From Syncephalis plumigaleata (taxonomy: Eukaryota; Zoopagomycota; Zoopagomycetes; Zoopagales; Piptocephalidaceae), in NCBI GenBank assembly GCA_025201365.1, contig JAIXMF010000004.1:248001-312000 (forward strand): a stretch of 64,000 bases of DNA, in the 5' to 3' direction. Below the pieces are notes generated by a model. The model did no database searches and was not told the origin of the DNA. It worked only from the letters and a program-made list of their open reading frames with translations. Positions 4,021-62,900 of this stretch are shown piece by piece; position 1 is the first letter of the stretch; every line of letters begins with the position of its first letter. The position numbers and the translations under genes were made by a program.

Positions 4021-4137
4021 GGTAAAGTTTATAGCTATAATGACGACAACGACAACAACGACAAGATAAGGTAGAAAAAACGAACGCAACTATACTGTGA
4101 TATCGCAGTGATTATTGTTAAAGTGAATTAGGAAAAA

Positions 4138-4679
4138 CAGAGTGTTTTTCCATCCAATTTGCGCATTTATCCTTTAACATTTGCAGTTTATTAATAAACA
4201 GATTAACGCAATTGTTAACACTATTATTACCATAGAAATGCCAATTGACACAGCATGATAATAATAATAACAATTCAGTATTAGTAATGGATCATTTATT
4301 GATAGTGATAACTATTATCATCAATTCTATAAGATAGATGATACAAGTGTACTAGTATAGTTGGATATTGCCATGTCATGTACTTACAAGTAGCTATTGA
4401 TTATCGTTTATGGAATCGGGATATGGCTGCATGTCTGAATTTTATTCAGATTATCCGCAGTGCTCGTAATGGAAGTCGTATTCCAACACAATTCCAACGA
4501 GGTGCCGTTCCTTCTAAGCGTTCAAAGAAAGAAGGACAAGGACAACGGGGGTCCAAACAACGAAAACCAAATTAACCGTGGCGTTATCGCGACCACATCT
4601 AAATACGTAAGTGTTAACATCATCATTATTTATTCATAAAACTGAAGGCTAACTGCGCAAATTGGATGGAAAAAGCCTG
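4138..4679 (+). mobile_element. Fanzor-family deletion derivative (MITE-like, 0.54 kb)
   Basis: This is a short copy of the 43081-47223 element in opposite orientation. Its left 250 bp match the promoter-side end of the full element (46975-47223, reverse complement). Its right 290 bp match the nuclease 3' end (43081-43370, reverse complement) almost base for base. The right TIR (ATTGGATGGAAAAAGCCTG) abuts TA at 4680; the left end has two extra bases and lacks a clean TA. The internal deletion joins the two halves near 4390. It lies 118 bp upstream of the cysteine-synthase-like start codon. Confidence 0.85.
4378..4575 (+). pseudogene. Fanzor C-terminal remnant (RuvC-III segment)
   Basis: A 65-codon open frame whose last 55 or so codons are the C-terminus of the full Fanzor: LWNRDMAACLNFIQII, then the basic tail PSKRSKKEGQGQRGSK, ending KPN versus KSN in the full copy. 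It has no RuvC-I, RuvC-II or zinc finger and cannot be a nuclease. The conserved DNA may be kept for another reason, such as a guide-RNA 3' region; that is inference. The full copy is at 43186-45535 on the minus strand. Confidence 0.8.
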
Positions 4680-4694
4680 TAGAATTTCTTATTC

Positions 4695-7600
4695 ATACAT
4701 TCGTAATGCCACCACTTCGTTACTATCATTCACTTTTATCCGGCAGCCATTTGCTTGTTGAGGCAACAACTACGTATTTATCATTATAAATGACTTGCGA
4801 GTAATATATAACTAGTATTGAGTGATGACGTGTTAAGAAATGTCACACTTGATGCAAGTGACATGATACGAGTGGAATATCATATGGTAGTAGTGGCAGT
4901 AGTTAATGCTACGAATGAATATTTCCTAAGCTAGATGATTGTATCTACTACTAGCAAAGAGACAAGCTGTGATCATTGAAAACCAATATTTATTAAATGC
5001 TTGCATATTAATTATCAGGCCATGTATACACAAGTAAATAAACAGCGAATATGTAGATTGCTAAATGTAAAAGGTTTATTGACTGAATTTCGAGTGTAAT
5101 AAATTAAACATTTGCCATTCTTCATAGCTTGCTACTTATTATATCATAATGACTACTAAGTATGAAATGTAGCATCGCAACAGATGATCTAGTAGTACTC
5201 ATCGCCTTACTTAGGTCTAGTAAACTCTGTCGCTGTCGATTGTATTGTTGAAGCTGACTAGGTGTAATGATGTCATCCGGCTGAAACTCGATATTAAGTA
5301 TTTTCTTGTAGAGGTGAAATAGCTTGTAAATGAATTGACCGGTTTTTTCAACATCAATCGCAAAGGACTGATAAATCCTCGTTAACTTAGGTGATGGTGA
5401 TAAGCCAGAGTTGGCCACTAATTCTTTGAAATCCTCGTGGACAGCTGAACGATCAAAGTTGATCAGCTTGATATCACCAATATTCTTCTTCTCATCTTCA
5501 AAAACCATAATATCTATTATGATAGCGGTTAGACTCATTCATATGTAGAAGCAATGACTTACGATCTATTCCTACGCTATTGTACAAGATTCCTATTTCA
5601 TTAAGGATTGAAACAGCTAAACAATGTTATGATTAGCATTACTATTCAAATCGTTGCTTCTAATGATACACGTACCTTTCATTATTCGAGCAACCATGTT
5701 GGGTATTTGCTTAGCTATGGCGAATTTAGGCCTTCGTCCAAGGAGACTGGTCATGGTAACATAATTGCCATGCGTTTCGAGCACAAAACATCCTATTTCT
5801 CCATCTTCTGTCTGACCGCTAGCTATACGTTTAAATAAAATGTCGTCTAACCTCCTCTGGTATTCTGGATCATCTATTCTATCGACATACTAATAATAAT
5901 AGCGTAAGCCAATGATATAAAGTATTATAGCTGTAACTTACATCATAGAATCTCTTTGCATTTGCATATCTCTCCTTTCCTTTGTAGCATGAGATAAGGA
6001 CATTTTTCTCACCTAACTTCTCGTTCATTTCATATCGATAAACATTAGAGCTGAGTGGCCATTGCATCTGTTGGAATCTGTACTTTCCGGAAAATTGTAT
6101 ATATAAATCCTTATTATTAGGACCAAATGCTTTATGTATAATCATCTCCTCTGCTGATTGAGGTTGTATTTGATTATTACTTTGAGGTACTGGAAGTATT
6201 GGTCTGAATGCATTATTCCAGTTAATACTTCCAGATTGCACATTAGAATTTGGCTGTTGGTTCCGTTGCTGTGCTGTCATCGACATTTGATTGGGATTAT
6301 TATTGGTGAATGATGATGGCGCACCTCGCATATCAATGCCATTTGTGTGATGCGATAACATCATGCACACACACAGTGTGATTGCAGATAATGAGGTCGT
6401 GCTGTATTTCATGACTATCCCGGTCGAGTAACTTGTTAATATATCGTCAATAAACTCGATTCTTGTGACCGCACTTGTGCTGATCTATATCGACGACTGG
6501 TGCAGTGTATTTCGTATACTAAACGGAATGGCGTTGACGTGTAGTTCTATGAGGAGAGTTGACGACGGTAAAAAAAGAAAAGAAGAACGTGTAACTAATA
6601 TCGCTAGTCAGTTTTGACATTTCTAATACTCTACTTATAGGTACAATGATGCAGTTTATTTCTATTACAACGACACGTGTAGTCCATAAGCGTACACACG
6701 TTGCTCATTGTATTCAAACTGAATCATGGTTGTATACATGCGTGCAAATAAAACATTTAGTAAAATAAAATTGGAAATGGAATAGAATCGGTATGTTTTT
6801 GATACATTGCTTCATCAAGTCATTCAAGCAAGATACCAGAATTAGTGATCAGATAGTGTTGTCATTCATAAGTGCTTGTCTATACGCGCTATCAATCAAG
6901 ATTACAATCACAGTTGACATGTTTCATCAGTGTAAGTAGATGGCAGAGAACACTAATTTGCTTATCCCATAGAATTGAATGAATAGACGCCAGAAGAAGT
7001 GGGATTCAATTTATTATGTTTCGATTTAGTAAGTATTGGAGATTGAAGCACCAGAAGGAAATCCATACTTTAGACTGTGCAAATGTGTACAACGAGTGAA
7101 GAGTAAGCCGTGGATACGCTGTAGCTTATTAGCGTACAAGATGTGCTAGGATGCAAGCTAATCGAACGCACAGCTACATTACAGACAAATGTGACGTGCA
7201 ATGCCATTGGATTCAAGCATGTTGTCGTCATTAGCAAGTCGCTAGGTAATAGCAGTACACTTTTTATGGTACATGAGACACTATTAGCTCGCTACAAACG
7301 CATGATTACCGAGGCTAGTTGCCATCCAGCTTTCACGATAAGAATAGCCGACACATTGACATTCGATCCATGTCTCCCTTTCAGCTTCTTCGCTTTGATC
7401 ACTCCCGCACACACTTGTGTCCTATGGTCCTCGTTTGTCAATAATACATCGGTAGACATCGCACTTGATACAAAACAACTTTAGTATATCCAGTCTATTG
7501 CGAGTAGATCGACACCACATCATCGTATCGATCGTATGGACAAGTCTTTCTGCGTAAATGGCAATGACCACTATCGACATGTCATGATAGTCAGTACTCT

Positions 7601-26006: not shown

Positions 26007-27278
26007 TTAGCGCGTCAGATCGGTGATGATGTTGTGTGCCAGTTTCAAGCGATCGCGATGTATCAAGCGTTCATGCTTGTCGATACGAATTAAGTAGGTA
26101 GCAGGGTTAGGATGATCGAGGATAGGATGTGGCCCCGTCCAGCGAGGTTCCAGTTTGGTGTCAAATCGATTTTGTAATTCACTTCTTTTGACATAGACGT
26201 ATTGACCTATTGTCAACGGTGGTCTTCCTCGTCTCTTACCGTCATATCGTTCTTTCATACGTTGTTGTTTCTGCTTGATCTTCTCTTGTATTAATGGTAG
26301 TTGCGCATCAAATTGATACTGAAGTTGAGCCCCTCGAGCGTAAATTTCGCTCGCGGAAGGATACGGATATTCCGGGGGAGTTGGTAAGGTGAGGGATTCA
26401 GGAGCTTTAGGTTGATAACCTAACAATAGTTGGGCTGGGGAGAAACCGGTGGTGGCTTGCTTGTTGATATTATAGGTAAAAGTAACAGTGGGTAAGTATT
26501 GAGGCCATGTAGACTTATCTGACGATAGGGCGACAGAGCGAGCGAGTGCTTCGCCGAGTGTCTTGTTAAGTCGCTCGGTCAGGCCGTTAGTCTGTGGGCG
26601 ATAAGGTGTAGCGAAGGTGTGTTTGATGTCGAACTGCGCACAAAGCGCTCGAATGGTTTGATTGCGGAATTCGAGACCTTGATCGGTGAGTATTATTTGA
26701 GGTGTTCCGTAGGTGAGACAGACTTTCTTGTATAAGAATAATGCCACTGAAGCTGCGCTCTTGTCAGGTACGGCTTTAGTGATAGCCCACTTGGTTAAGT
26801 AGTCGGTAGCGACAATAATGTATCGTTGACCTCGAGCGGCGACAGGGAGAGGTCCAATAAGATCGATACCTACGCGATGAAAAGGAGTATGTACAGGTAT
26901 GGGATGTAAAGGTTCAGTAGGTGGTTCATTACGGCGAAGTTGACACGAGGGACAGCCACGGACGTAAGCTCGCGTGTCGTCCTTCATAGTCGGCCAATAG
27001 TAAGATTGGTGTAAACGGCGTATAGTTGCGTCGACACCGGGGTGTCCGGTTTGTTGATGACAGAGTCGAAGAGCTTCTAAAGCGCCTTCCGGTTGTAAGA
27101 CTAATAATGGATTGCGGTTAGATGTATTACGAGGATTAGTATAATATAGGTGTCGTTCTTGTAAGTGATAGGGTTTGGCGAATTGTCGAAACTTCTTTTC
27201 GGCATCTTGGTCCATGCCTTCGGGTAGCCGCGTTTCCTCGAGGAAGTTTACCAACTCTCGGTAACGCCACGGCTCCAT
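26007..27278 (-). CDS. integrase frame of the Ty3/gypsy element
   Basis: A 423-aa open frame. It shows an HHCC zinc-binding region (H..TGHPG...C..C near residues 85-120), the catalytic core with GIDLIGPLP, TDYLTKW, LTDQGLEFRN and TNGLTERLNKTLGEA (D, D, E positions), and a C-terminal GPY/F-like module (RWTGPHPIL). No chromodomain is evident. It catalyses insertion of the cDNA copy. It lies directly after the pol frame on the same strand. Confidence 0.93.
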   Translation of the reverse strand: MEPWRYRELVNFLEETRLPEGMDQDAEKKFRQFAKPYHLQERHLYYTNPRNTSNRNPLLVLQPEGALEALRLCHQQTGHPGVDATIRRLHQSYYWPTMKDDTRAYVRGCPSCQLRRNEPPTEPLHPIPVHTPFHRVGIDLIGPLPVAARGQRYIIVATDYLTKWAITKAVPDKSAASVALFLYKKVCLTYGTPQIILTDQGLEFRNQTIRALCAQFDIKHTFATPYRPQTNGLTERLNKTLGEALARSVALSSDKSTWPQYLPTVTFTYNINKQATTGFSPAQLLLGYQPKAPESLTLPTPPEYPYPSASEIYARGAQLQYQFDAQLPLIQEKIKQKQQRMKERYDGKRRGRPPLTIGQYVYVKRSELQNRFDTKLEPRWTGPHPILDHPNPATYLIRIDKHERLIHRDRLKLAHNIITDLTR

Positions 27279-27284
27279 GATGAC

Positions 27285-30200
27285 TTACTGTTGCGCGGCC
27301 AAACCTGTCGATCCTAGGCCGGCCTGATCTCGTTGAGTAGTGGTAAGCTCGTTCGCTTCTTCCACGTTAGGTGTACAGTGTTGTTCCAAGATTAATTGGG
27401 CGATGCGGTCGTGTTCTTGGAAGGTGACCGCGTTTTTGCCTAGGTTAATTAACAATATTTTCAACTCGCCTCGATAGTCAGCGTCAATTACGCCAGCTAA
27501 CACGTCAATACTGTATCGAGCAGCCAATCCGCTTCGTGGTGCGATGCGTCCGTAAGTGCCAGGCGGTAGTTGAATGGCGATGCCGGTATTTACTTGTTGT
27601 GTCTCCATAGGTTCGATAGTGATTGGGTGAAGCGTGTGTAGGTCGTAGCCTGCCGCGACTTCGGTACTTCTCGTCGGTATCTTAGCGTACGGTGAGATAC
27701 GCCTTACCTTTAGATTTTCGTTATCGTTTATCGCTAGTAGCGCGTCGATAACCTCGGGAGCGAATGGTGGTCGAGACAGAGCGTCAGCGTTGGCGTTAGC
27801 TCTTCCTTGTTTATAGGCGATGGTATAGTCGTAGTCGCTTAACTGGGCGATCCATCGAGCGAACTTCCGGGGTACTGGTCGAGTTGCTCCGCGTGCAAAT
27901 ATAAATGGCACTGCTTGATGATCGGTACGTATCGTCACCTTCTTACCATGTACGTAGTGACGAAAGTATTCTAATGCCCACATTACGGCAGCTGCTTCTA
28001 ATTCCGTAGTAGTAGCTAGTCGTTGCTCGTGGATAGTGGTGCTGCGACTGGCATAGTGAATTGGATGTTCCTTGCCGTCTTCTCCTACTTGTGACAACAC
28101 AGCTCCAAGGCCTGCGACCGATGCGTCCGTTTCCAATACGAAGTTCTTGTCGAAGTCGGGGAACGTCAGCACGGGCTCCATGGTGAGTGCTGCTTTCAAT
28201 TCGTCAAAGGCTTTCTGTTGATTGTCGCTCCATTGCCAGGGGGTTTCCTTTCGAAACAGGAGGCGTAAAGGCTCGGATATTCGGGCAAAGTTGGGAATGA
28301 ATCTTCGGTAATAAGAGGCTAGACCGTGAAACGATCGAAGCTCTTTCACGTTGATGGGTGGCCGACACTCCGATATACGTTGTACCTTGTCGGGGTCAGT
28401 GGTGAGCCCGTTGATGCCGGTACGATAACCTAGGAAGGCGACTTCTCGTTTACCGAATTCGCACTTCTTCAGTTTGAGCTTGAGCCCGGCTTCCCGTATT
28501 CGGTCCAGAGCTCGTTGTAAGTGTACCAGGTGTTCGTCGAAGCTTTTGGAATACACTTGAATGTCGTCGAGATAAACGAATACCGACGTCCAGAGTAGTC
28601 CCGTGTACAGCTCATTCATAAGGCGTTGGAAAGTTGCTGGAGCGTTCATTAAGCCGAAAGGCATTACGTTGAACTCGTAAGTACCTTCTCTCGTAACGAA
28701 TGCTGTCTTGACCTTGTCCTTCTCCTCCATGCCGATCTGCCAATATCCTGCTGCTAAATCGACACACGAGAACCACGTTGCTCCGTTGAGTGCGTCGAAG
28801 ATCTCGTCGACCCTAGGTAAAGGGAATGCGTCGCGTTTCGTTACGGCGTTGAGTCGTCGATAGTCCACGCAAAATCGAATGGAGCCGTCCTTTTTCGTAA
28901 CCAATACAATTGGGAACGCCCATGGTCCGTTCGATGGTCGGATTAACTGCTGTTCCAACATGCGTCGTACCTCGGTCGCGATAAACTCGTTATCTTTAGG
29001 TGAGTAACGATAGGGTCGACATAATATTGGGTCGGTGTCTCCGGTATCGATCTTATGGGTGATGCGCCGAGTGTGTCCCATGTCATTTGCGTCCTTCGCA
29101 AAAAGATCGCTGTTTTTATGTAGGACTTCCATCAGCGATTGTCGGTGTGTGGGTGACAATCCGGGGTCCAGCGTTTGGGCCAGCTGTTCCTCCGGGTATA
29201 TAAAGGGTGTTTCCTCGGTGGTCACGTAAGCATCCACACTTCTTTCCTTTTTCTCCCATTCCACCCGTAACTCAGCTTTGTTTTTGACCGTCTTTACCTT
29301 TTCGATATTGGTTGACGCTAAGGCCAGCTTAGTGCCTGCAGGTAAGTGAACATCATGGTTAGTGGGGTTGATTAGGGGGAGGCCTATCTTTGCCGCGGGT
29401 CCTAGTGCGGGTAGACCTATTAAGTGATGTTGTGTTAGTTCCAGATGAGCTGGTTCTAGTAAGATTTCGTCGTTGCGCAGCGGTAATGCGTCGGGCTTCC
29501 AGACGTATTTGCCCTGCGCCTTGATGCATATGGGAGTGGTTGTATGCGTGATGTAAGCGTCTACTTCGGTTGCTGTTTCCTCGTTTCCTTCGAAGAGTGC
29601 TGCCATTGCTTCACCTTCCTGATCCGTTTCGTCGTCCTTTGGATCGTATACTTGTTGCATGGCCACTACGGCCTCCGCTTCCGTAGCCCAGGTGGTGAGG
29701 CTGCGGGTTGCTCCTTGGTGTTGAAAGTGTATAATCCTCTCGGCACAGTCCAAACGGGCTTCCGTACGTAGGATCCAATCCATTCCGAGCAATAGCGAGA
29801 ACCGGGCATGTGGCATAACGTGTACGTCGATCTCGAAGGGGACTCCGGCGACGCGTATAGTTAATCCTCTTAGCATGCCGGCGGGTTTACGTGATTGCCC
29901 GTCGATTCCGACCATGCTATACGGGGACTCGTCGTCTATGAGTAATTCGAACTCGCGTAAGAATGTCTCGCTGATCATGCTGTATGCTGAGCCGGTGTCG
30001 ATAATGGTGGGTACTGGCCGTTGCTTCACATACGTGTGCGCGTGTAATGCTTTGATTCCTGTGATTTCGCTATGAAGCGCGTCCGCCTCGTTCTTCTCGT
30101 TCTTCTCGTTCTTCTTTGGCTTTAACTTACGTATGGGCGCGTGCGTACCTCGATCGGGGTGTAGTTGCGCGTCTATTAGTTCCGCCAGTTCTCCGTATGT

Positions 30201-30755
30201 GATGCCAATAGCTTGTTTGCTGAGTCCTCCGGGCAGATCGTAAGCGTGACTTCCTTTGGCTCTTCTCATGTTGAGTAGTTGAATCAGAAGCTTGCGTTCG
30301 CGGCTCGTTTGATTGGTGTTGAGGCGTCGCTCGTTCTTCTTCTCGTCGTCTTTTCCTGGTTCATTTGTGTCTTCTTCTTGTTGCATCTCCATTACTACGT
30401 CTTCCGCGTTATCGCTTAGCATAGGCTCCGGCTGCTGCGGCTCCAGTGGCTGTTCTTGCTGTTGCGATTCCGGTAGTTCTTGTTGTTGCAGTTCTTGTAG
30501 TTCTTGCTGTAATTCTTGTTCCTGTGCAGTCTCTTCCGTTGTCTTCCTGCTTGGTCGTAACGTTCTTGAATACGGCTCCTTGGGCTCCTTCCGCGTACGT
30601 CTCTCGGCCGCGAAGGCGTCCGTCTCGTAGGGTTCTTGTAAATGGACCGCAACCTGACCCTCACAATGGGCTGCGGTTACTGAAAATCCGTACGTTTCTT
30701 GTCTCGACACTCTTTCCAGCTGTGGTTGGGGTCCACCAGGTTGCAGTTCGGGCAC
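27285..30755 (-). CDS. pol frame: protease, RT, RNase H and dUTPase
   Basis: An open frame of about 1150 aa. In order: a Gln/Glu-rich leader, an aspartic protease (IIDTGSAYSMI), reverse transcriptase (FCVDYRRLNAVT, FVYLDDIQVYS), RNase H (FVLETDASVAGLGAVLS) and a C-terminal dUTPase with all five family motifs (AGYDL, APRSGLA, GVIDADYRGELKI, HDRIAQLIL, GLGSTG). A dUTPase would lower dUTP during cDNA synthesis. The start of the frame overlaps the end of gag in another phase, as is common in this family. Confidence 0.93.
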   Translation of the reverse strand: MPELQPGGPQPQLERVSRQETYGFSVTAAHCEGQVAVHLQEPYETDAFAAERRTRKEPKEPYSRTLRPSRKTTEETAQEQELQQELQELQQQELPESQQQEQPLEPQQPEPMLSDNAEDVVMEMQQEEDTNEPGKDDEKKNERRLNTNQTSRERKLLIQLLNMRRAKGSHAYDLPGGLSKQAIGITYGELAELIDAQLHPDRGTHAPIRKLKPKKNEKNEKNEADALHSEITGIKALHAHTYVKQRPVPTIIDTGSAYSMISETFLREFELLIDDESPYSMVGIDGQSRKPAGMLRGLTIRVAGVPFEIDVHVMPHARFSLLLGMDWILRTEARLDCAERIIHFQHQGATRSLTTWATEAEAVVAMQQVYDPKDDETDQEGEAMAALFEGNEETATEVDAYITHTTTPICIKAQGKYVWKPDALPLRNDEILLEPAHLELTQHHLIGLPALGPAAKIGLPLINPTNHDVHLPAGTKLALASTNIEKVKTVKNKAELRVEWEKKERSVDAYVTTEETPFIYPEEQLAQTLDPGLSPTHRQSLMEVLHKNSDLFAKDANDMGHTRRITHKIDTGDTDPILCRPYRYSPKDNEFIATEVRRMLEQQLIRPSNGPWAFPIVLVTKKDGSIRFCVDYRRLNAVTKRDAFPLPRVDEIFDALNGATWFSCVDLAAGYWQIGMEEKDKVKTAFVTREGTYEFNVMPFGLMNAPATFQRLMNELYTGLLWTSVFVYLDDIQVYSKSFDEHLVHLQRALDRIREAGLKLKLKKCEFGKREVAFLGYRTGINGLTTDPDKVQRISECRPPINVKELRSFHGLASYYRRFIPNFARISEPLRLLFRKETPWQWSDNQQKAFDELKAALTMEPVLTFPDFDKNFVLETDASVAGLGAVLSQVGEDGKEHPIHYASRSTTIHEQRLATTTELEAAAVMWALEYFRHYVHGKKVTIRTDHQAVPFIFARGATRPVPRKFARWIAQLSDYDYTIAYKQGRANANADALSRPPFAPEVIDALLAINDNENLKVRRISPYAKIPTRSTEVAAGYDLHTLHPITIEPMETQQVNTGIAIQLPPGTYGRIAPRSGLAARYSIDVLAGVIDADYRGELKILLINLGKNAVTFQEHDRIAQLILEQHCTPNVEEANELTTTQRDQAGLGSTGLAAQQ

Positions 30756-32146
30756 GGGCGAGATCCTTTCTGCGGACGCGCTGTGAGTTCCTTGACTTGT
30801 GCCGCTAACTTATTGACTTGTTCTAGCAACATTTTGAACTCGTTGCTGCTGTTGTTGCTGTTGTTAGTCGAGCGGGTATCCTGGCGTTCGCGTTGAGTTT
30901 CCAGCTCGAATAGAGGTTTGATGCGTGACGGGTTATCGTTATATCTCATAGGGGCCTTGTCGTCGTTGTCCGGTTGAATCGATGGAAGATTGTTCGAAAA
31001 TCGATGATTGAGCTCGTATTTGATAGCTTGTTGGACTCTCTCTTCAAACGACATCCTTCCCTTGATCTGGTCCGTCTCGTAATCGAGGATCTTGTTCCGG
31101 AGTAGTGTCGGTAAGCCTTGCAGAAATATGTCTCCGATCTGTTCGTCGAGGATGGTGCGAGTGAATCGTACTCGTTTGGTGAGTTCCCTTATACGCATCG
31201 CAAATTGACTAATATCTTCGTCCCCGCATTGTTGGCAGTTCATTAGATATTTGAACCAATTGTTCTGCAGTTCGGGAGTGATGAAAGCACTGATGAAAGC
31301 GTAGTAGAAGCTGCCTGGTGTCGACTTCCTGGGATCCGCATTAGTCTTCCAGTGGTTGACTTGATGTCTAGTCGCGTTCCACCAAGTGGCGGCCGAACCA
31401 TTCAAATAACTTCCTACCCATCGTATCATATGGGCATCGTTCCACTGGTTTGCAAAGGAGGCTTGTTCGTAATGTTCGAGCCATAGCACAGCATCTTCCT
31501 GCGTAGGTGAGCCAGAGAAACATTTAATATGCTTGTCGTAGGTTTGCCGCGGTCCGCTGTGCCGTCCGTGATTCTCTTGGCCGAAACCTGACATTAGACC
31601 GTAACCATCTACGTTCCCTCTGGGCTCATGAGCAGCATCTCCGTTATGCGTGGTAACTACCGGCGGTGCCGCAGTCCGTTGCAAAGGAGGAGCTCGATGT
31701 GCCTCGAAACTCTGGTTCGTGTCCATGGACGGGAGTGGTTCCAAGAATCCGGTGTGGTTTGGCAATACCGTGCTGTTATACGCTGGCTGGTTCACCGTGT
31801 TGTAAGGTAACGTGTAATGCGATGCTTGTGCCAAGAATGAGGCTCTCACTTCTCTTGGTAAGGTAATGAATTGTTGATATTCGCCCATCATGCTATTGGA
31901 TGATGGCGTCTCTGCTGGCGAACCTTGTACGGGTGCCCAGTAATATTGATTCGGGGCCGGTGCTGCCGCGCCCGCTGGTATGGTCTGTTCTTGGGTGGCC
32001 GATGTCGTCGGTCCTGCTGGTATGGTTCGTTCATATGTGGTCGACGTAGTCGCACCTGTTGTTGTGTTGACCGTTTCGCCGCCACTTCCCATGACGGTGC
32101 CAGAATCGCTGGCCGGTCTTGTCGGTTCTTGTGCTTGGTTATTCAT
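30677..32146 (-). CDS. gag frame of the Ty3/gypsy element
   Basis: Capsid-type protein, about 489 aa from the first ATG. The N-terminus is Thr/Ala/Pro-rich; a retrotransposon gag core follows (DAVLWLEHYEQASFANQW ... SQFAMRIRELTKRV...FLQGLP). It ends with a CPNC...H....C zinc knuckle. The frame is open upstream into the region next to the LTR, but the first ATG is at 32146. The sequence just inside the LTR (TTGGCGAGCAAGCACC on the coding strand) is the likely tRNA primer site; the tRNA is not identified. Confidence 0.88.
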   Translation of the reverse strand: MNNQAQEPTRPASDSGTVMGSGGETVNTTTGATTSTTYERTIPAGPTTSATQEQTIPAGAAAPAPNQYYWAPVQGSPAETPSSNSMMGEYQQFITLPREVRASFLAQASHYTLPYNTVNQPAYNSTVLPNHTGFLEPLPSMDTNQSFEAHRAPPLQRTAAPPVVTTHNGDAAHEPRGNVDGYGLMSGFGQENHGRHSGPRQTYDKHIKCFSGSPTQEDAVLWLEHYEQASFANQWNDAHMIRWVGSYLNGSAATWWNATRHQVNHWKTNADPRKSTPGSFYYAFISAFITPELQNNWFKYLMNCQQCGDEDISQFAMRIRELTKRVRFTRTILDEQIGDIFLQGLPTLLRNKILDYETDQIKGRMSFEERVQQAIKYELNHRFSNNLPSIQPDNDDKAPMRYNDNPSRIKPLFELETQRERQDTRSTNNSNNSSNEFKMLLEQVNKLAAQVKELTARPQKGSRPCPNCNLVDPNHSWKECRDKKRTDFQ

Positions 32147-32200
32147 ATTTCGCAGTGTCCCTCTTATTACTCGAGTCTCGTTCTGGTGCTTGCTCGCCAA

Positions 32201-42858: not shown

Positions 42859-43080
42859 ACTTAAGCGATAAATAGAATAAAAGGAATAGAAGGAATGAAA
42901 ATGAGCAAATCTGATGTAGACACAAGTCGATGAAGAAGGGTTAAAGGTAAAGATTGTAGGTATCGCTATTTTTTAATTGTCTAAATAATAATAACAATGA
43001 TGATTGATGAATTTGTATTTACATTATAGTATACGTGTCTAGACATCTAAATGATCATTTTAAAATAATGTAGTGACTTA

Positions 43081-43113
43081 CAGGCTTTTTCCATCCAATT
43101 TGCGCAGTTAGCC
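43081..43113 (+). repeat. Fanzor element terminal inverted repeat, nuclease-3' side
   Basis: Pairs with 47191-47223. The first 26 bases differ at two places (CAGGC versus CAGTG). The same end, with small changes, occurs at 4679 (inverted), 18161 and 48495. It is 73 bp from the nuclease stop codon. Confidence 0.9.
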
Positions 43114-43185
43114 ATTTGTTGTTACGAATAAATAATAGTTATAATAACACTTACGTATTTAGATGTGGTCGCGATAACGCCACGG

Positions 43186-45535
43186 TTAATTTGATTTTCG
43201 TTGTTTGGACCCCCGTTGTCCTTGTCCTTCTTTCTTTGAACGCTTAGAAGGAACGGCACCTCGTTGGAATTGTGTTGGAATACGACTTCCATTACGAGCA
43301 CTGCGGATAATCTGAATAAAATTCAGACATGCAGCCATATCCCGATTCCACAAACGATGCTCGAATTCTTTAATTGGCTTGCCGTCTTTATCCAGCTCGA
43401 CCTCCTTGTCCTTCGTGCCCTTCGTGCCCTCTTGATTCTTCTCGTCATCCACGTCCATCATATCCTCTTGCTCCTCCTCATCATCTATGTCCATCATATC
43501 CTCTTGATTCTTCTTCTTCTCCTTGTCCTTCTTAGCCTTTATATTCTTCATGGCCTCTTTACAAGTTTGATGTGTGCATCTAATAAAATAATTAATTAAT
43601 AAATTGTAATAAATTGCAAAGTGTAATAAATTGTACTTACCTTAAGAGACCATGTCGAATAATTTTATGGCTGTCTTCATGTTTCTTGGGTCGAGGATTT
43701 GTGACCATCTTGAACGTCTCGAGCGTGGGTTTGTTGCAGGCTGGGCAGCACTTACTGGTCATATACTCGTCGATTAGAAAGACTTTAAAATGATGTCGTC
43801 GTAAAAGTCTTCTAAAGCCAATACCACGTATGGGCTCGTGGTATCTGGCGTGAGGAGCGGACCAGTTCCCCATCACAAAAACCGCATCCTTCTTGAACTT
43901 ATCAGTCAGCTCATGGATCAGCTTTTGATCACTCTGTTGTTTGCTGATGTAGGCTGACAGTTTCAACTTCCTAAAGAGAGGATGTTGAGTAGAATGGGCG
44001 GTGGGGAGGGTGAGAGTATCTCGGTAAAAGCTGGTGAGAACATCTGTGTGCTGTGCTCGACACCTCAGATAGTCCTCATATTCCGGTAGAGATACAGAGT
44101 TGCCCTTGGTTCTTGAGAGAGCCTCCTCGGCCTGCTGCACCGCCAGATTTCCCTTCTTGCACTCCTCGCGAATCTTGCGGTATTTCTTCGTCCTCCGCGT
44201 CTTGTCTTGACATGACTTTGTGTACCGATATTTTTTTGGCTTTTTTACTGTCGATTTTTCGTGTACACAAAATAGTAAATCCCTTCTTCCTGGGTCCACG
44301 GCCACGCATTTGTCTTTGAACTTCTGTTGCGCCGTAACACTTAAGTCGGTGAGATACTTGAAAGGCTTCTCTGATGGTTTTGCTGCTGGTGACTTCGTTT
44401 CCCCTTCCTCGGCGTCCTCGGCGTCGCTCTCGTCGTCGTCATTCTTGTCGTCGTTCTTCTTTTCGTTCTCCTTTTTCATCTTCTTGATGACCGTGACACC
44501 AACGCCATCGGTGTCAATCGAGCCAGAAAACTTGAGCTCACCCCTCATTTGAGTATCGAACGGCTTCAACTCGAGCTTCACGGCATCCTTCCAATGTTCC
44601 TCCATATGATCTTTACCCTTATACGCGCATCCTAATATGTTGTGACAAAGAATAACGGTGTCGATGTGGATGTAACACGGTGAGAAGGATCGGCGCAGAG
44701 GGAAGCAGTTGAACCCCTTTAAGTCGAGGTCCTTAAACAGGCGCGCAAGCTTAAAGAACGCCTTAAAGTGCTTCACCGGGCGCGCTACACAGTCGTAATA
44801 ACGGCCGTTTTCACCGAATTCATAGCCATCAGGGTAAGCACTTAAAACAGGCTCAAAGATGTCGAATGCCTCAGCAAGCTTAGGCATTTTCCTAAATGTC
44901 GTTTTACGCACACCTTGCTCGGCTATTTCCACCTTGAATGTTCTTACTTCCTCAGTAATTTCCTTACTGATTTTGTTGCGAAGGTCAGTTTCAGTTAATT
45001 TCTTGTAGAATTGCTTCCTCATATCCTTTACCCGCTTCTTGACATCGAAGTGCTTGTTGACGGCACGCCGAAGGAACTCGCCAAAGCGCAGCCTGACGTT
45101 GTTGGTGTAAGCAACGTACATCTTCCTTGCCTCATAAGTTGCTGATTGCTGAGCATAGAGTAACACCAGCGGTTGATAGCGAGCAATGCGAAGGTAATCA
45201 TCCAAATGGCTGTAGATGACTGCGCGAAATTCTGCTGTTGTGCCTTCGGTATGCTTTGTTTCCCGCTGGATTAATGCAAGCCATACTTCTGTGAAAAAGC
45301 CTACACTTATATACTTTTCGAACCTAAAGTTTGGCTTATCAAGTTCTTTGAGTAGGATATGTTTCGCGAAGGAGTAGGCGTGGAAGGTCGTGGTGTGTAC
45401 AATGTTTACAAAGTCGCGTAAAACACCACGACGCTCCTTCTTCCAACCAATGCCAGAAAGCGAAGACTTCACAGCCAGAACTCGTTCACTGTCGGCAGAA
45501 GTAGACGAGCCATGAGTGCCTGGCTGTGACGCCAT
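43186..45535 (-). CDS. Fanzor (eukaryotic TnpB-like) RNA-guided nuclease, 762 aa
   Basis: Two exons (43641-45535, 43186-43579) encode 762 aa. Fanzors are OMEGA-type, RNA-guided DNA nucleases related to TnpB and Cas12. Visible: a long helical N-terminal half; an acidic-basic low-complexity insert (about residues 360-395); RuvC-I VAVDPGRRDLLF with Asp 414; a basic helix (RRTKKYRKIREECK) that could be a nuclear signal; IDEYMTSKCCPAC with the Thr-Ser pair at 593-594 and the first zinc-finger Cys pair; the second Cys pair CTHQTC after the intron; and RuvC-III LWNRDMAACLN with Asp 712. This follows the known D-x(125-275)-TS-xx-C4-RD plan. Unusual: about 70 charged residues lie between zinc finger and RuvC-III. 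All key residues are present, so it may be active. The start is the only ATG near the 5' end. A guide RNA is expected near the 3' end. Confidence 0.92.
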
Positions 45536-47190
45536 GGATGAAATGGATGGATATCAATGCAATAGCAGTATGTTAAAACGAGCACAGTTACAATATGAAG
45601 GGTTAATTAATCTTTTATTTTATTGTAGTATAGACGCTTCTTTATATACGTGGCATGCTGGTAGTACTAACTGCGTGGATCTGATGACGTAGGGGTGAAA
45701 CGCTCGTGCAGACACATACAGGAAGGGTGAATCTATTATGGTAAGTAGTATCATTTACAGCGCAACACAGTAAGACTCGTATCATCTAGTGTCATTGTAG
45801 CAATGGTATAACGCCGCTTATAATTTAGCAATCGGTAAGCATTAATAAGTACTAGTAATCTTGTTAACACTTTATTAAATATATTTGTTATTAATAAATG
45901 AACAGAGTCTTGTAATGGATGTTAATATATTCATTTGCATTCTACTAATGCTTCCATTAGCAATTTCTCCTTAACTATTTGCTAACACTTGATTAATGGT
46001 TTACCAATCCATTTCCAAGTATCCATTTCATCGTTGCTTTTCTTTCCCCTTTCCCTTTACTTCATTACCTACATTATTTCCTCCTCCTTTACTTCGTTAA
46101 CAATTCTAATACATTTCCATTCCTCATTATCGACTGATGTATAAACTCCTGATTTTCTTTATTAGTCAATGAAAGCACCTTTCTTTCTCTCTCTTTACTA
46201 ATGCTGTCTTCTTCGTACTAACCTCTTTTTCCTTGTCATTCAGTAACACACTTATTTGTGTCAACTACATTCTAGTTGTTTCTTTTCTTTTTATTTCCCT
46301 TTTCTCTCTCTCTATAACAACACACGTCTACTTCCTCTTGACTATATGCTAGTTATTTCTTTTCCTTTCTCAGTAATGCGCGTCTTCTTCGTATCATTCA
46401 CATTCCACTTACTTCCTCTCTCACTTTAGCATACACATTCCCAATAGCAGCTATTCTGTCATACTATCTCTAAGCCGTTTATTTATTTCTTTGCTTTCCT
46501 CTTGCTCTAACCTATCTACATGCTCTCTTGTCGTTATTATTACTCTACCAATAAGCCTTGTTTATTGTTTGTTCTAGTCCTTTGTTTTCTATCACTGCCC
46601 TGCTTATTTATCAATGTTTAAGCATTTACTGCTCTCGTTGTAATATGTACCTTTTACTTTTACCGCTCTTTTCCGTCATCTGTTTGTATGCCACCCTTAC
46701 GTCATGCTTTTATTTGTATTTTCATTTGTTTATTGCCATCTACATACTCTATTCACCTACAAGCATATACTGCTTCTTCAAATAAACTGGCATACGTGTT
46801 CATGCACCATTCCTCGCTCATTCCTTGCTCCTTCGTGTCAACTCAGTCATTTTACTAGTTACTGCTTGTTTATTACATTGTTTATCGTATATTCACTTCG
46901 TTCACTCGTTGCTCTCTATGCAATTAATCGTAAGCATTATTATCATAATTTATCTACCATACTAGTTTATTACTACTTGTAAGTACATGACATGACAATA
47001 TTCAACTATACTAGTACACTTGTATCATCTACCTTATAGAATTGATGATGATAGTTATCGCTATCAATAAATGATCCATTACTAATACTGAATTGTTATT
47101 ATTGTCATGCTGTGTCAATTGGCATTTCTATGATGATAATGGTGTTAACAATTGTGTGAATCTATCTATCAATAAACCGCAAATGTTAAA
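45536..47190. other. non-coding promoter-side arm of the Fanzor element
   Basis: 1.65 kb between the nuclease start and the right TIR. No transposase or other gene is seen. From about 46000 to 46980 the plus strand is pyrimidine-rich (CTTT, CTCT, TTCC), so the nuclease strand is purine-rich. It has no tandem repeat. The outer 250 bp are shared with the 4138 derivative. It may hold promoter or RNA functions. Confidence 0.6.
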
Positions 47191-47223
47191 GGATAAATGC
47201 GCAAATTGGATGGAAAAACACTG
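47191..47223 (-). repeat. Fanzor element terminal inverted repeat, promoter side
   Basis: Pairs with 43081-43113. The subterminal sequence (GGATAAATGCGC and about 250 bp further in) is shared with the left end of the 4138-4679 element and, in part, with the right end of the 48495-48732 MITE. Confidence 0.9.
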
Positions 47224-47300
47224 TATCATACGTAGTAATAGTAATAGTAATAGTAGTAATAGTAGTAATAGTAGAAGATGACGGCGTCTTTCTTTTCCTC

Positions 47301-48248: not shown

Positions 48249-48494
48249 AGCGAATACGTAGTAGTAGTAGAAGTAGAAATATTGAGGAATGAAAAGAGTG
48301 TTAAAGAATCGTGTTTACACGAAAGCGTTTCGTTGTCAATGATGTGATCACACACACACACGCATATATCTATCCAGTTTGAAAATGATATCACCGTCAT
48401 CATCATTATCATCATTATCATCATTATCTGATATTTGATATTTGAAATAAAAATACTTTATTCAATCTTTATCCTATCATTTAATCATCTAGTA

Positions 48495-48732
48495 CAGACC
48501 ATTTCCATCCAATTTGTGCAGTTAGCCTTCTGTTTTTACGAATAAATGATAGTTATCACTAATTGTAATATATGATATAGCGATCATTAATATCTCCCTC
48601 AACTGCTAGGGCAATGACAACTACTCAATAACAATATCAATGCGATGATGGTGTTTACAATTGTGTAAATCTATTTATTAATGGACTGCAAACGTTAAAG
48701 GATAAATGCGCTAATTGGATGGAAAAACACTG
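48495..48732. mobile_element. 238-bp MITE of the Fanzor family
   Basis: TIRs CAGACCATTTCCATCCAATT and (inward from the right) CAGTGTTTTTCCATCCAATT, each next to TA. The ends match the Fanzor element, while about 80 bp of the middle match 20330-20440 only. No coding capacity. Its right end lies 5 bp from the S1P lyase stop codon, so the element now forms that gene's 3' UTR or terminator. Confidence 0.88.
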
Positions 48733-48737
48733 TAGGA

Positions 48738-54723: not shown

Positions 54724-56072
54724 ATGAAATACAGCACGACCTCATTATCTGCAATCACACTGTGTGTGTGCATGATGCTATCTCATCACACAAATGGCAT
54801 GGATATGTGGGGTACACCATCACCATTCACCAATAACAATCCGAATCAAATGCCAATGACGGAACAACCATGGAAGCAACAGCCAAATACTAATATAGAG
54901 TTTGAAAGTATTAACTGGAATAATGCATTCAGACCAATACTTTCGGTACATCAAAGTAACAAACAAGCACAACCTCAATCGGCAGAGAATATGATTATAC
55001 GTACGGCGGTAGATCCAAGAAATAAGAATATATATATACATTTTCCCGATAAGTACAAGTTTAAGCCAATGGGATGGTCAAAGAATCTTAGAATTTACCG
55101 ACAGCAAAAGGAAACAATGTGGGGAGATAAAAAAGTACTTGTACTATGTTACAAGGGAAGCGAAAGATATGAGAATGCAAAGAGATTCTATGATGTAAGT
55201 TACAGCTATAATACTTTATATCATTGGCTTACACCATCATTATTATTGTTATCTAGTATGTCGATAGAATAGATGATCCAGAATACCAGAGGAGGTTAGG
55301 CGACATTTTATTTAAACGTATAGCTAATGGCCAAACGGAAGACAAGAAAATGGGATGCTTTGTATTTGATAGATTTCACAAATATATTTTCATGCAATCT
55401 TTCATTAGGCGAACCACTACATTCACCATAGCTAAACAAATACCCAACATGGTTGCTCGAATAATGGAAGGTACGTGTATCATTAGAAGCAACGATTTGA
55501 ATAGTAGCGCTAATCATAGCGCTGTTTAGCTGTTTCAATCCTTAATAAAATAGGAGTCGTATACGGCAGCGTTGGAACAGAGCGTAAGTCATTGCTTTTA
55601 CATATGAATGAATCTAACCGCTATCATAATAGATATTATGGTTGCTGAGGATGGTATGGGGCGTATACATGATATTAAACTGCTCCACTTTGATCGTTCA
55701 ACTGTCCACGAGGATTTCAGAGAATTAGCGGCCAATCCCGATATGTCTCCAACATCTAGATTAACAGCAATTTATAGTACTTTTGTAGCGGATGTTCAAC
55801 AAACTAGTTATTTTATCAGCTCACTATTTCTCTTCTACAGGAAAATACTAACCGTAGAATTTCAATTGAATGATTATAGTATGGCTTCTGAGCTCCGGCT
55901 ATACAACATGCAACGAATAGCCTTAGTAGAACTGAGTGATATGATGGTTAAAGCTGAATCTCCTATGATGGTGATGAGTTACATGGTTTACGACCAATAT
56001 CACATAATAGCAAGTAAAAGTTATGAAGAATGGCAGATGTTTTATTTATTACACTCGAAATTTAGTCAATAA
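54724..56072 (+). CDS. secreted kinase-like (pseudokinase) protein, intact copy
   Basis: Four exons (54724-55194, 55257-55470, 55530-55583, 55633-56072) encode 392 aa. It has a signal peptide (residues 1-25), an Asn/Gln/Pro-rich linker, then a kinase-like fold: VLVLCYKGSERYENAKRFYD (beta-3/alpha-C-like, no VAIK lysine), YVDRIDDPEYQRRL, GCFVFDRF (hinge-like), VSILNKIGVVYGSVGTEHIM (catalytic-loop position, HRD Asp missing) and IKLLHFDRSTVHEDF (DFG position reads HFD). The helical C-lobe follows. Catalysis is unlikely. Exon 3 is only 54 nt and encodes the loop that would carry HRD. Role unknown; secretion and rapid divergence suggest an outward-facing binding role (inference). Confidence 0.78.
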
Positions 56073-59979: not shown

Positions 59980-62900
59980 ATGAATAATACAATTATACCC
60001 GAAAACCCAAACGAAATTATAGAATGGCCGTACGTTGGCACGTATTCGAACTTTCACCGAATACGAAGAGACGGGCCGAAGAAGATGCGTATAGTACATT
60101 GGAACGTCACAAGTGCGGCGAACGAGACTAAGCTGAGCTTAATACTCAACGCACTAGAACCGCTAGATATAGACTGTATAATATTGACTGAGACTCGCTG
60201 GTCGAGCGCATTAGAAAGAAGCATACCGTACCGACCGGACATCCAGAGGAGATACTCAGTTATCACCGCGGGAGCCGGAGACGACGACACACCAAATTAT
60301 CATGGAGTGGCGATGCTGCTGAAGAAGGAATGGACGAAGCACATCCAGGAGATCTATAAAGTAGATAGGAGAATGCTAGGAGTACGTATGGCTTTTCGCG
60401 GTAGAGGTCTGTTGATTGTCGGGCTCCTATATCCCACAGATCAGGGGAGAAGAGATGCCGGGACAGCAAACAACATGTACAATACCTTAAAAGTCTGGTT
60501 GAACAAAGCCCGTGAGAAGAGAGCCGAGACGATAGTCGCAGGCGACTTTAACGCAACACCACAGCCATGGATTGACAGGAGCTCGGTACGTCACCACGCG
60601 TTGCCATCAACGCAACAAGAAGGAGATGCACCGGACTTTACTGCTCCGGCGAGTAGTAGAGCAGAAACGCAACTACTAGAGTACTTACTTGATCAACGAC
60701 AGCTCATTGACGCATGGCGATATCGATTCCCCGATGTCCGACAATTCACCAACACGATGATCGGTTCCACATCTACTTCGAAGGCACGGCTCGACCTATT
60801 CCTGGTATCGGCAAACCTCTTGGAGCAGGTAACAGGAGTGGGCATAGAGAACGCGCTAGATACCTCTGACGACACCAGTTACATAAACGAAGGTATACCT
60901 GGGTCTCACCAGCCCATCCTATTAGAGCTGTCCACCTCTATGATGTTCCCGCAGGCCGAGGACAGAGTTACCCAACCTAGAAAGATACTGAACAACAAGA
61001 GTGTGACTGAAACGCAATGGAGTAACTACTCTGAGGCGACAGACAAGGACTGGTGCAGCATGATGGAAGAAGCAGAGAGATTTACGCGTACTCAACCGAA
61101 CCTACCACACTCGAATATGCCTTACATCAGCGAGCTATGGAACAAGCTCTCCACTCACCTGATGAAATGTGCCGAGGACACCTTACCGTTCACGACCGTC
61201 CGCAAAAGGAAGCCCAACAAACCTATGATGTTAAATCCCACGCTACAAGTAACCAGGAAGCTAGCAAGGATCCTGCGCAAAGGTGGATCAGATAGAAGGA
61301 TAGGAGGCGAGATCAGAAGAATAGCCGCGCAACATCCTAGCGTGGAGCTATTGGCCGAATCGGCGAACAGTCATGGTGGGATCATCCTAGGAGAGATTAG
61401 AAGGCTGAGGACGAGATTGCACAACCAATATAGTCGTGCAAGGAAAAGAGAGGTAGCTGACAAGATTCAAAAGGCAGTTACAGCAAGAAACTTCAACTTC
61501 CATACGGACATGAAGAGAACCTTGACGAACATATTGGAAAGAGGGAAACCTCTGCAAACCATCACGGTCGTGCAAACGAGCAGTCATGAGATCGAGGATA
61601 GACCGGAGGAAGTACGCCAGCGGGTTCGAGACTACTTTATACAGTGGATGTCGATTAGAAACGGTACGGACCCAATGACACACCCTAGGTGGAGAGACGC
61701 CTACGCGCCAATGCCGCACGTTCACGAAAGTATATACGACAACCTCATGGACCACGTGTCGGTGGAGGAGCTGGAGGCCACGCTTCATCAACTTCCCTCC
61801 GCTAAAGCGCCAGGAGAGTCGGGAGTCACAAACGAGATGTTGAAACAAGCCAGCAAGCGAATCCATAGAATCATGGCAGCTATGATAACGACGTGTTTAC
61901 AACGCAGCGACATACCGCAAACTTGGAAACACGGAAAAATCATACCCATCCCGAAAGTGACAGACTGGTGTGGAGATATGGCGCAGCTGCGGCCAATCAC
62001 CCTGCTAGAGACGATGCGCAAACTATTCTCGATATCCATGACGAAGCGCTTACAAAACATACTGGAGAAGAATCATGTACTGCGAGGAGGGAACTTCGGC
62101 TTCACTAGGGGGAACCAAGCTACCGACTTTGTACAAATTCTGAGATCAGTAATGGATGATTCGATCTGCTACAAGAAAGGACTAGAGGTGCTCATGCTGG
62201 ACGTGAAACGAGCATATGACTCGGTCTCATGGCAAAGCCTAGCCTGCTCGCTACGAAGAATAAAAGTGCCGGAAGAGTTCATAACTCTGTTAGAGAACAT
62301 ATTTAATAGCAGAACAGCTTCGGTTATTACAGCGCACGGTCAAACAGAAGCCCACCACCCTGAGTGCGGCTTGGACCAGGGAGAAGTGAACTCACCCACG
62401 TTATGGCTGATATTCTACGACACTCTACTCAGCAAACTCGATGAATCCAAAATAGGATACGCGATGAGAGAACGACAACCGGGCACTACACAGAAGATAG
62501 TAGCATATGGAGCCTTCGCAGATGACCTAACTCTAGTAGCAGAAGATCGTGACACCTTGCAAAAGCTGGCAGATATCTGTAGATCCTTCTTCGAACTACA
62601 CGATATCGAGGTGAATTGCAACAAAACGATTCATACGGCGAAAGATCCTCTAGGCAACTCAGTAGCGGAATCACTACCGAAAATTCGATTGGCGGAAGGA
62701 GAAGCGGGTCTGGTACAGACGGTAGCGCCACCGACAATACCTTTCCGACTACTCGGCTGCTGGCTGTCCTTGGACGGCAAGAGCAAAGAGCCACTCAGAA
62801 TCATCCATCAATCAGTTAAAGGGCTTTGCAGTATCATAAGGCGGAAGGAGATCAGTCACGAGATTGCGATATATATCATCAACTCAGTGATAATACCGGC

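Follow-up and report, generated by a model that had tools for sequence, protein, structure and literature searches.

What becomes of a transposon that carries the gene of a predicted RNA-guided nuclease and no transposase of its own? The question is raised by a 64,000-nt stretch of the genome of Syncephalis plumigaleata, a mycoparasite of the phylum Zoopagomycota (this whole stretch is the window in what follows, and coordinates are positions within it unless a contig or element is named), which holds an element with a gene for the nuclease Fanzor1. In bacteria, the TnpB of IS200/IS605 elements is an RNA-guided nuclease whose guide lies in the flank of the element, and these elements are marked by TnpA and IS605 ends; unlike them, the window element has neither of these features and shows terminal inverted repeats (TIRs) and a TA duplication instead. 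At the same TA, the second haplotype has a ghost, one of a class of short relatives that keep both inverted repeats and the predicted guide-RNA end and have no Fanzor gene. Considering all the evidence, we regard it as probable that this is a TA-targeting, non-autonomous Fanzor1 transposon whose ends are mobilised in trans, whose copies are retained by guided cleavage and whose interior is exchanged during repair.

The element lies on the minus strand and its parts, from its 5′ to its 3′ side, are the following:

43081..47223, minus strand: the whole Fanzor1 element, 4143 nt between TA dinucleotides, delimited by TIR alignment and the genome-wide family.
47224..47225, no strand: TA at the 5′ end of the element; A precedes it in element orientation, giving ATA, the predicted target-adjacent motif (TAM).
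47188..47223, minus strand: 5′ TIR, from the TIR alignment.
45536..47187, minus strand: leader of 1.65 kb without a long open frame, the longest having 112 codons from stop to stop.
43641..45535, minus strand: Fanzor1 exon 1, with REC/WED, RuvC-I D414, RuvC-II E590 and the first zinc Cys pair.
43580..43640, minus strand: GT-AG intron of 61 nt; of the GT-AG pairs compared from 43541 to 43660, this one came out best (762 codons).
43186..43579, minus strand: Fanzor1 exon 2, with the second zinc Cys pair, RuvC-III RLWNRD with D712, and the stop codon.
43081..43210, minus strand: scaffold predicted for the guide RNA (fRNA/omegaRNA), which extends into the final codons and has no defined start; based on the hairpin and on retention in ghosts.
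43165..43183, minus strand: hairpin directly 3′ of the stop codon (GTGGCG TTATCG CGACCAC), of a kind whose arms co-vary.
43081..43116, plus strand: 3′ TIR, from the TIR alignment.
43079..43080, no strand: TA that borders the element on its 3′ side, the target-site duplication, from the sequence and from single-TA empty sites in four siblings.
43059..43078, minus strand: predicted guide, the host flank immediately beyond the 3′ TA, by analogy with SpuFz1 (PMC10432273).

What we credit here and below to PMC10432273, PMC11423790, PMC3627910 and PMC10711439 draws on part of each text. An earlier note on this DNA, made from the letters alone, had described a 762-codon gene inside TIRs that abut TA, with no transposase present. 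The TA dinucleotides on either side and the alignment of the TIRs, which differ at 5 of 38 aligned nt with the TA included, bear this out, and the spliced two-exon model gives 762 aa, with an exon junction (HGLLR-CTHQTC) that agrees with the solved homologue. No transposase open reading frame (ORF) lies within the element, the leader frames having at most 112 codons (these frames were not put through a family search). The element's own empty site was not seen, the second haplotype being occupied by a ghost there.

That the encoded protein is a Fanzor1, as the earlier note had proposed, is supported by its sequence, fold, conserved catalytic residues and ratio of nonsynonymous to synonymous substitution rates (dN/dS). 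Searched with phmmer against PDB sequences, it matched Parasitella PpFz1 (E 1.1e-107), Spizellomyces SpuFz1 (3.4e-36) and GtFz1 (0.067); Pfam returned Cas12f1-like_TNB at E 0.12 only, below the cut-off. Among the 30 homologous proteins listed, with 8000 candidates scored, the named ones outside the host came from Mucor, Rhizopus, Bifiguratus and Coemansia. We modelled exon 1 only with AlphaFold (631 aa, 17 sequences, mean predicted local distance difference test score 74.6, RuvC-III outside the model) and obtained 59 PDB matches at E≤10, of which the 7 at E≤0.001 were every one Fanzor1. By residue count on the alignment, D414, E590 and D712 correspond to D383, E541 and D606, the metal-binding residues of SpuFz1 (PMC10432273). 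Unlike in bacterial TnpB, glutamate E590 stands just ahead of the zinc Cys pairs (C597/C600 and the C-x4-C of CTHQTC), which is the rearranged site described in PMC10711439; the set listed from the sequence alone included two Cys pairs, had D414, T593-S594 and D712 exactly placed and had omitted this residue. D414 and E590 are at least 90% conserved in the 17-sequence alignment, and D712 falls outside the exon-1 reference. Across 28 exon-1 pairs among 8 copies dN/dS ranged from 0.32 to 0.54; the Fanzor gene family is under purifying selection. The gene in the window looks intact, and RNA-guided cleavage with a TAM is predicted for its product. The closest solved relative, PpFz1 (PDB 9cf0-9cf3), has a FRI domain of about 100 aa in RuvC that binds cyclophilin (PMC11423790); between the two phmmer segments PpFz1 has 112 residues and the window protein 14, so we take this domain as absent here.

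When the assembly (32.6 Mb, 383 contigs) was searched with the exon-1 protein, 95 matching pieces were found and grouped into 41 places, which include fragments and both haplotypes of some single sites. The TIR core gave 1038 matches at ≤3 mismatches in the assembly, as opposed to 1 for a reversed-pattern control, and 7 in the window against a shuffled mean of 0.01. Fifty-eight non-redundant elements comprised 40 ghosts (500-650 bp), 11 copies of about 230 bp, 2 of about 1.1 kb and 5 Fanzors of family A, a biased sample, as ghosts were picked by likeness to the window 3′ end (best 40 of 715), or else came from the first places on contigs C1 and C2 that match the TIR exactly. The main ghost class (545 bp) consists of bases 1-253 and 3868-4147 of the Fanzor element, so that the 3′ RNA end is kept and the enzyme lost, and in the 230-bp copies 78-178 nt are left from the 5′ end and 63-99 nt from the 3′ end. 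The window itself contains both kinds:

4138..4681, plus strand: ghost of the 545-bp class, the 5′ 253 nt and 3′ 280 nt of the element, with its 5′ TA lost; its arms are 93% (5′) and 96% (3′) identical to the Fanzor element.
48493..48734, minus strand: short copy of the 230-bp class with both TIRs, the element's 5′ 91 nt and last 64 nt.

Four of four empty alleles of sibling elements carry a single TA (in L029, one of the four siblings, a 5′ TIR could not be recognised). We take the window element to be a Fanzor1 transposon that is non-autonomous, targets TA and has ends resembling those of Tc1/mariner, and the proposal of a nuclease-only unit mobilised in trans fits the missing transposase, the TIRs common to many short copies and the four empty TA sites.

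Some arrangements around family members are of a different nature. A 4.1-kb TIR pair on C1 (L048/L049) was considered as a large element and rejected, for it holds an ORF resembling, by eye, the reverse transcriptase of a long interspersed nuclear element (LINE). The antisense LINE-like ORF of the window (61387-61866) also occurs at L048 1485-1817, beside a ghost TIR, which suggests that a LINE inserted into a ghost on C1. Likewise, a DDE_3 piece beside a Fanzor copy (C1:572852) was discarded as a partner because it sits between the two parts of a split frame and is a nested insertion. At C86:308-1364 and C99:52-806, inverted ghost pieces immediately follow a ghost; these are possibly nested or head-to-head insertions.

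The central observation came from comparing haplotypes. Contig C321 aligns collinearly with the window sequence to the left and right of the element (4801 bp at 98.9% and 4703 bp at 98.6%), and in place of window positions 43359-46972 it has 9 bp, which leaves a ghost at the same TA. The second haplotype was sought for 19 of the 41 Fanzor places. A ghost occupies it in 7 (C318, C340, C23, C351, C223, C1:1615k and C362) and a Fanzor in 3, the TA is empty in 4, the arrangement is complex in 1 (C4/C340), and no counterpart was found in 4; the Fanzor copy of C223 has no recognisable 5′ TIR. At the 14 ghost or short-copy flanks on C1, two of which are repeats themselves, a second haplotype was clear in none (0/14, best 40 of 688; this figure does not serve as a baseline).

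A ghost opposite a Fanzor could simply have arisen on the spot, when the Fanzor element there lost its interior, as in abortive gap repair. The junctions speak to this directly. A CTATTGATTA-type junction is found in 40 of the 41 ghosts compared and in 7/7 ghost alleles, and the CTATTGATTA arm occurs in 1 of 11 Fanzor copies, the one on C351, the other 10 having the other form. In 6 of the 7 pairs the local Fanzor arm lacks the CTATTGATTA stretch, so the ghost alleles there, which have the canonical junction, are not deletions of the Fanzor on site; in these 6 pairs the inner arms also differ more than the outer 3′ end. Local deletion is ruled out for these 6 if the contigs are correct and fits only C351/C106, so as a general origin of the ghost alleles we hold it to be most unlikely. 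Instead, a ghost junction foreign to the local Fanzor in 6 of 7 cases indicates that interiors are exchanged by templated repair. The distribution of differences is consistent with such exchange: over the 7 pairs we counted 10/840 in the 120 nt nearest the 3′ terminus, 38/1120 in the 3′ flank and 88/910 in the inner 3′ arm, and over the 6 pairs with a readable 5′ end, 62/1080 in the inner 5′ arm, 18/420 in the outer 70 nt and 25/882 in the 5′ flank. In these sequences, the outer 3′ end stays with the site while the interior is replaced. Moreover, of the 163 substitutions that separate the members of 7 same-site pairs (3 Fanzor/ghost and 4 ghost/ghost), 135 involve two states that are each present in two or more further copies, whereas of all possible substitutions 13.7% segregate.

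Exchange can also be read from single copies. The B-type Fanzors L008 and L010, on large contigs, have an exon 1 that is 71-73% identical to family A (L001, L003, L005), and are 83-90% identical to it in the 170 nt before the last 110. In a third B-type copy, L011, the value for that stretch is 71-74%, and in L007 and L012, whose exon 1 is 70-74% identical to family A, it is 36-39% (by global alignment, length differences included). A distant exon 1 joined to a close 3′ stretch means that interiors and ends reassort. These mosaics bear on a technical explanation as well, in which the small contigs are chimeric and error correction or polishing has jumbled the interiors of repeats. Every Fanzor/ghost or Fanzor/empty pair does have one contig of ≤108 kb, and short-read polishing could blur paralogues inside repeats. 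Nevertheless, polishing should shield the two ends equally, yet the 5′ ends are unprotected (18/420 in the outer 70 nt, as above), C321 is collinear with the window on both sides, and L008 and L010 show exchange without any haplotype comparison. We consider an assembly artefact quite unlikely. No close donor was found for two ghost alleles, for which the best matches elsewhere reached 93% (best 40 of 1075) and 95% (best 40 of 1041), nor for the Fanzor state, as no Fanzor copy exceeds 93% to window exon 1.

The part that stays with the site is likely a guide RNA, judging from its sequence. The last 280 nt are conserved across 20 Fanzor copies (mean pairwise identity 0.68-0.95 in 20-nt windows), and 26 distinct post-stop hairpins occur in Fanzor and ghost copies, the arms of which co-vary in most (GTGGAG/CTGCCAC, GTGGCG/CGACCAC, GGTTG/CAACC, GATTG/CAATC, GATAG/CTATC and CGGTTG/CAACCG). 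Exchanging arms between hairpins lowered mean stability from -5.4 to -2.9 kcal/mol; 12 of the 72 swapped combinations equalled or exceeded the native mean in stability. The pattern was unmatched at 3 ends (the short copy and the weak TIR match of the window, and L051), and the hairpin is mosaic or broken in a few ghosts (L058, L092, L103). Several results tell against a guide RNA. Conservation on its own is no sign of an RNA here, the final coding stretch being conserved to the same degree as the untranslated end; the swapped-arm comparison used nine hand-picked hairpin types, some with a common arm; five single sequences folded no more stably than their shuffles (z 0.31, 0.32, -0.07, -0.71 and 0.82); and among the base pairs given by RNAalifold on automatic alignments, double changes occurred in 2 of 22 for the Fanzor set and in 0 of 15 for the ghost set, a weak signal that we put down to misalignment of the hairpins. 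No Rfam match was found in the window. At L092 425-609, the left arm of one hairpin type and the right arm of another form a broken stem, a possible recombination point inside the predicted guide-RNA end.

We then considered the flanks, where a nuclease of this kind would read its target. A precedes the TA at 206 of 322 exact 5′ ends (both haplotypes counted), compared with 32.5% of NTA in the window. In the fetched sample A adjoins the TA on the 5′ side in 38/57 and on the 3′ side in 19/78 (Fisher p=1.3e-6); TA being palindromic, a bias on one side means that the orientation of the element is read at the target. ATA is found in 23/35 ghosts, 6/9 Fanzors, 4/7 short copies, 2/2 of the 1.1-kb class and 3/4 unclassified elements, and we predict approximately 5′-ATA as the TAM of the window Fanzor. 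Element 3′ ends read TGTA in 63/63 aligned, so the occupied site is without the ATA that the empty form offers in about two-thirds of cases. The bias could alternatively be the insertion preference of an orientation-sensitive transposase, and not a TAM at all. This weighs on our prediction, as the short copies that lack the hairpin also prefer ATA (4/7), and the bias may indeed reflect the transposase. Against it stand PpFz1, the closest solved homologue, whose TAM of ATN resembles ATA (PMC11423790), and Spizellomyces punctatus, where a conserved CA before the 5′ repeat and a TAM of CATA are reported (PMC10432273) and might be connected through the TA; PMC11423790, in the text available, gives the TAMs of SpuFz1 and GtFz1 in the opposite order. 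We rate transposase preference as a serious contender, if somewhat short of an even chance.

A mechanism for retention and exchange can be outlined from these data. A Tc1/mariner-type transposase encoded elsewhere would move the element ends in trans. The 3′ RNA, together with the adjacent flank, would guide Fanzor to the empty site, read through the TAM of about 5′-ATA, and the occupied site, whose 3′ end reads TGTA and lacks the motif, would be spared. By cleaving empty sites, which are then repaired from a template, Fanzor would keep copies in place, and a spared occupied site with a cut empty one fits the retention model familiar for TnpB. During such repair the polymerase might copy another family member, or ordinary ectopic gene conversion might intervene, so that the interior is swapped from ghost to Fanzor or from Fanzor to ghost while the end encoding the guide RNA stays with the site. 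Either a transposase acting in trans or Fanzor itself could make the breaks, or they could have another source.

The last point matters, for we see an even chance that ordinary ectopic gene conversion, or template switching after transposase excision, did the exchanging with the nuclease uninvolved and the ghosts as passengers. Gene conversion among dispersed repeats is well known, 3 of 4 ghost/ghost same-site pairs show interior shuffling without a Fanzor gene, and the hairpin-less short copies have the same target bias; yet gene conversion alone leaves unexplained both the purifying selection on the nuclease and the co-varying hairpin kept in most ghosts. At the other extreme, ghosts could be docking sites with a site-specific guide RNA, at which Fanzor cutting in trans leads to the interior being copied in, a homing apart from transposition. 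We think this unlikely; if true, RNA-guided homing would be the way in which the nuclease gene spreads through its RNA-only relatives.

Other observations count against our account of trans-mobilised ends, guided retention and interior exchange. The mobilising transposase was not found: the assembly contains 31 DDE_3 pieces, and none of the representatives, one for each of four DDE_3 groups, shares these TIRs (other families were not searched). One ghost/ghost pair, L075/L078, shows hardly any interior difference. In C351/C106 the arms scarcely differ, and joining the two arms of C351 where they overlap in a TA reproduces the ghost junction, so this pair is compatible with local deletion. Finally, we infer that paired contigs are haplotypes rather than duplications, and the flanks of C1/C189 are strongly diverged (20/160), far above the other pairs.

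The window element belongs to the known Fanzor1 kind, and ghosts were already known from S. punctatus (PMC10432273). The Spu-1 element encoding SpuFz1 is similar in that the Fanzor1 gene lies inside inverted repeats without a transposase, its ghosts have a conserved region of about 550 nt that keeps the guide-RNA end, and conserved 5′-flank bases are related to the TAM; the 3′-end RNA with its guide in the flank was measured there and is predicted in S. plumigaleata. The two hosts belong to different fungal phyla, with 23-24% identity in the fold matches. S. punctatus has 42 Fanzor and 134 ghost loci, compared with our 1038 TIR-core matches, and the 230-bp copies are additional to what is described for it (PMC10432273). 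PUl-4 (Bao and Jurka 2013, PMC3627910) also has Fanzor1 alone between TIRs with TA duplications; its TIRs match confirmed mariner elements, and no such partner was found here. In the literature searched, PMC10432273 was the sole source on Fanzor ghosts, and nothing joined Fanzor and Syncephalis; for Fanzor with gene conversion, or with miniature inverted-repeat transposable elements, no title among the matches listed concerned Fanzor elements. The available part of PMC10432273 contains no mention of same-site Fanzor/ghost alleles, and we did not find their allelic alternation reported in the literature searched, which excludes most subscription papers. A full element in one haplotype and a ghost in the other at several sites therefore appears to be new here.

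Elsewhere in the window there is a Ty3/gypsy retrotransposon (26007-32200, minus strand) whose pol frame (27285-30755) encodes protease, reverse transcriptase and RNase H, followed by a terminal dUTPase (PF00692, E 6.9e-38). Two similar ORFs 48 kb apart, 5879-6412 (minus strand) and 54724-55272 (plus strand), have a common N-terminus, MKYSTTSLSAITLCVCMMLSHHTNG, which by eye resembles a signal peptide; the one ORF of the two that was tested had no Pfam family.

The role of Fanzor for its transposon was left open in the discussion of PMC10432273. The pairs of haplotypes with a Fanzor and a ghost at the same TA offer a ready-made system to test whether the nuclease causes the exchange in the living fungus, and the family supplies new Fanzor1 orthologues with a predicted short TAM, together with many natural variants of the 3′ RNA end.

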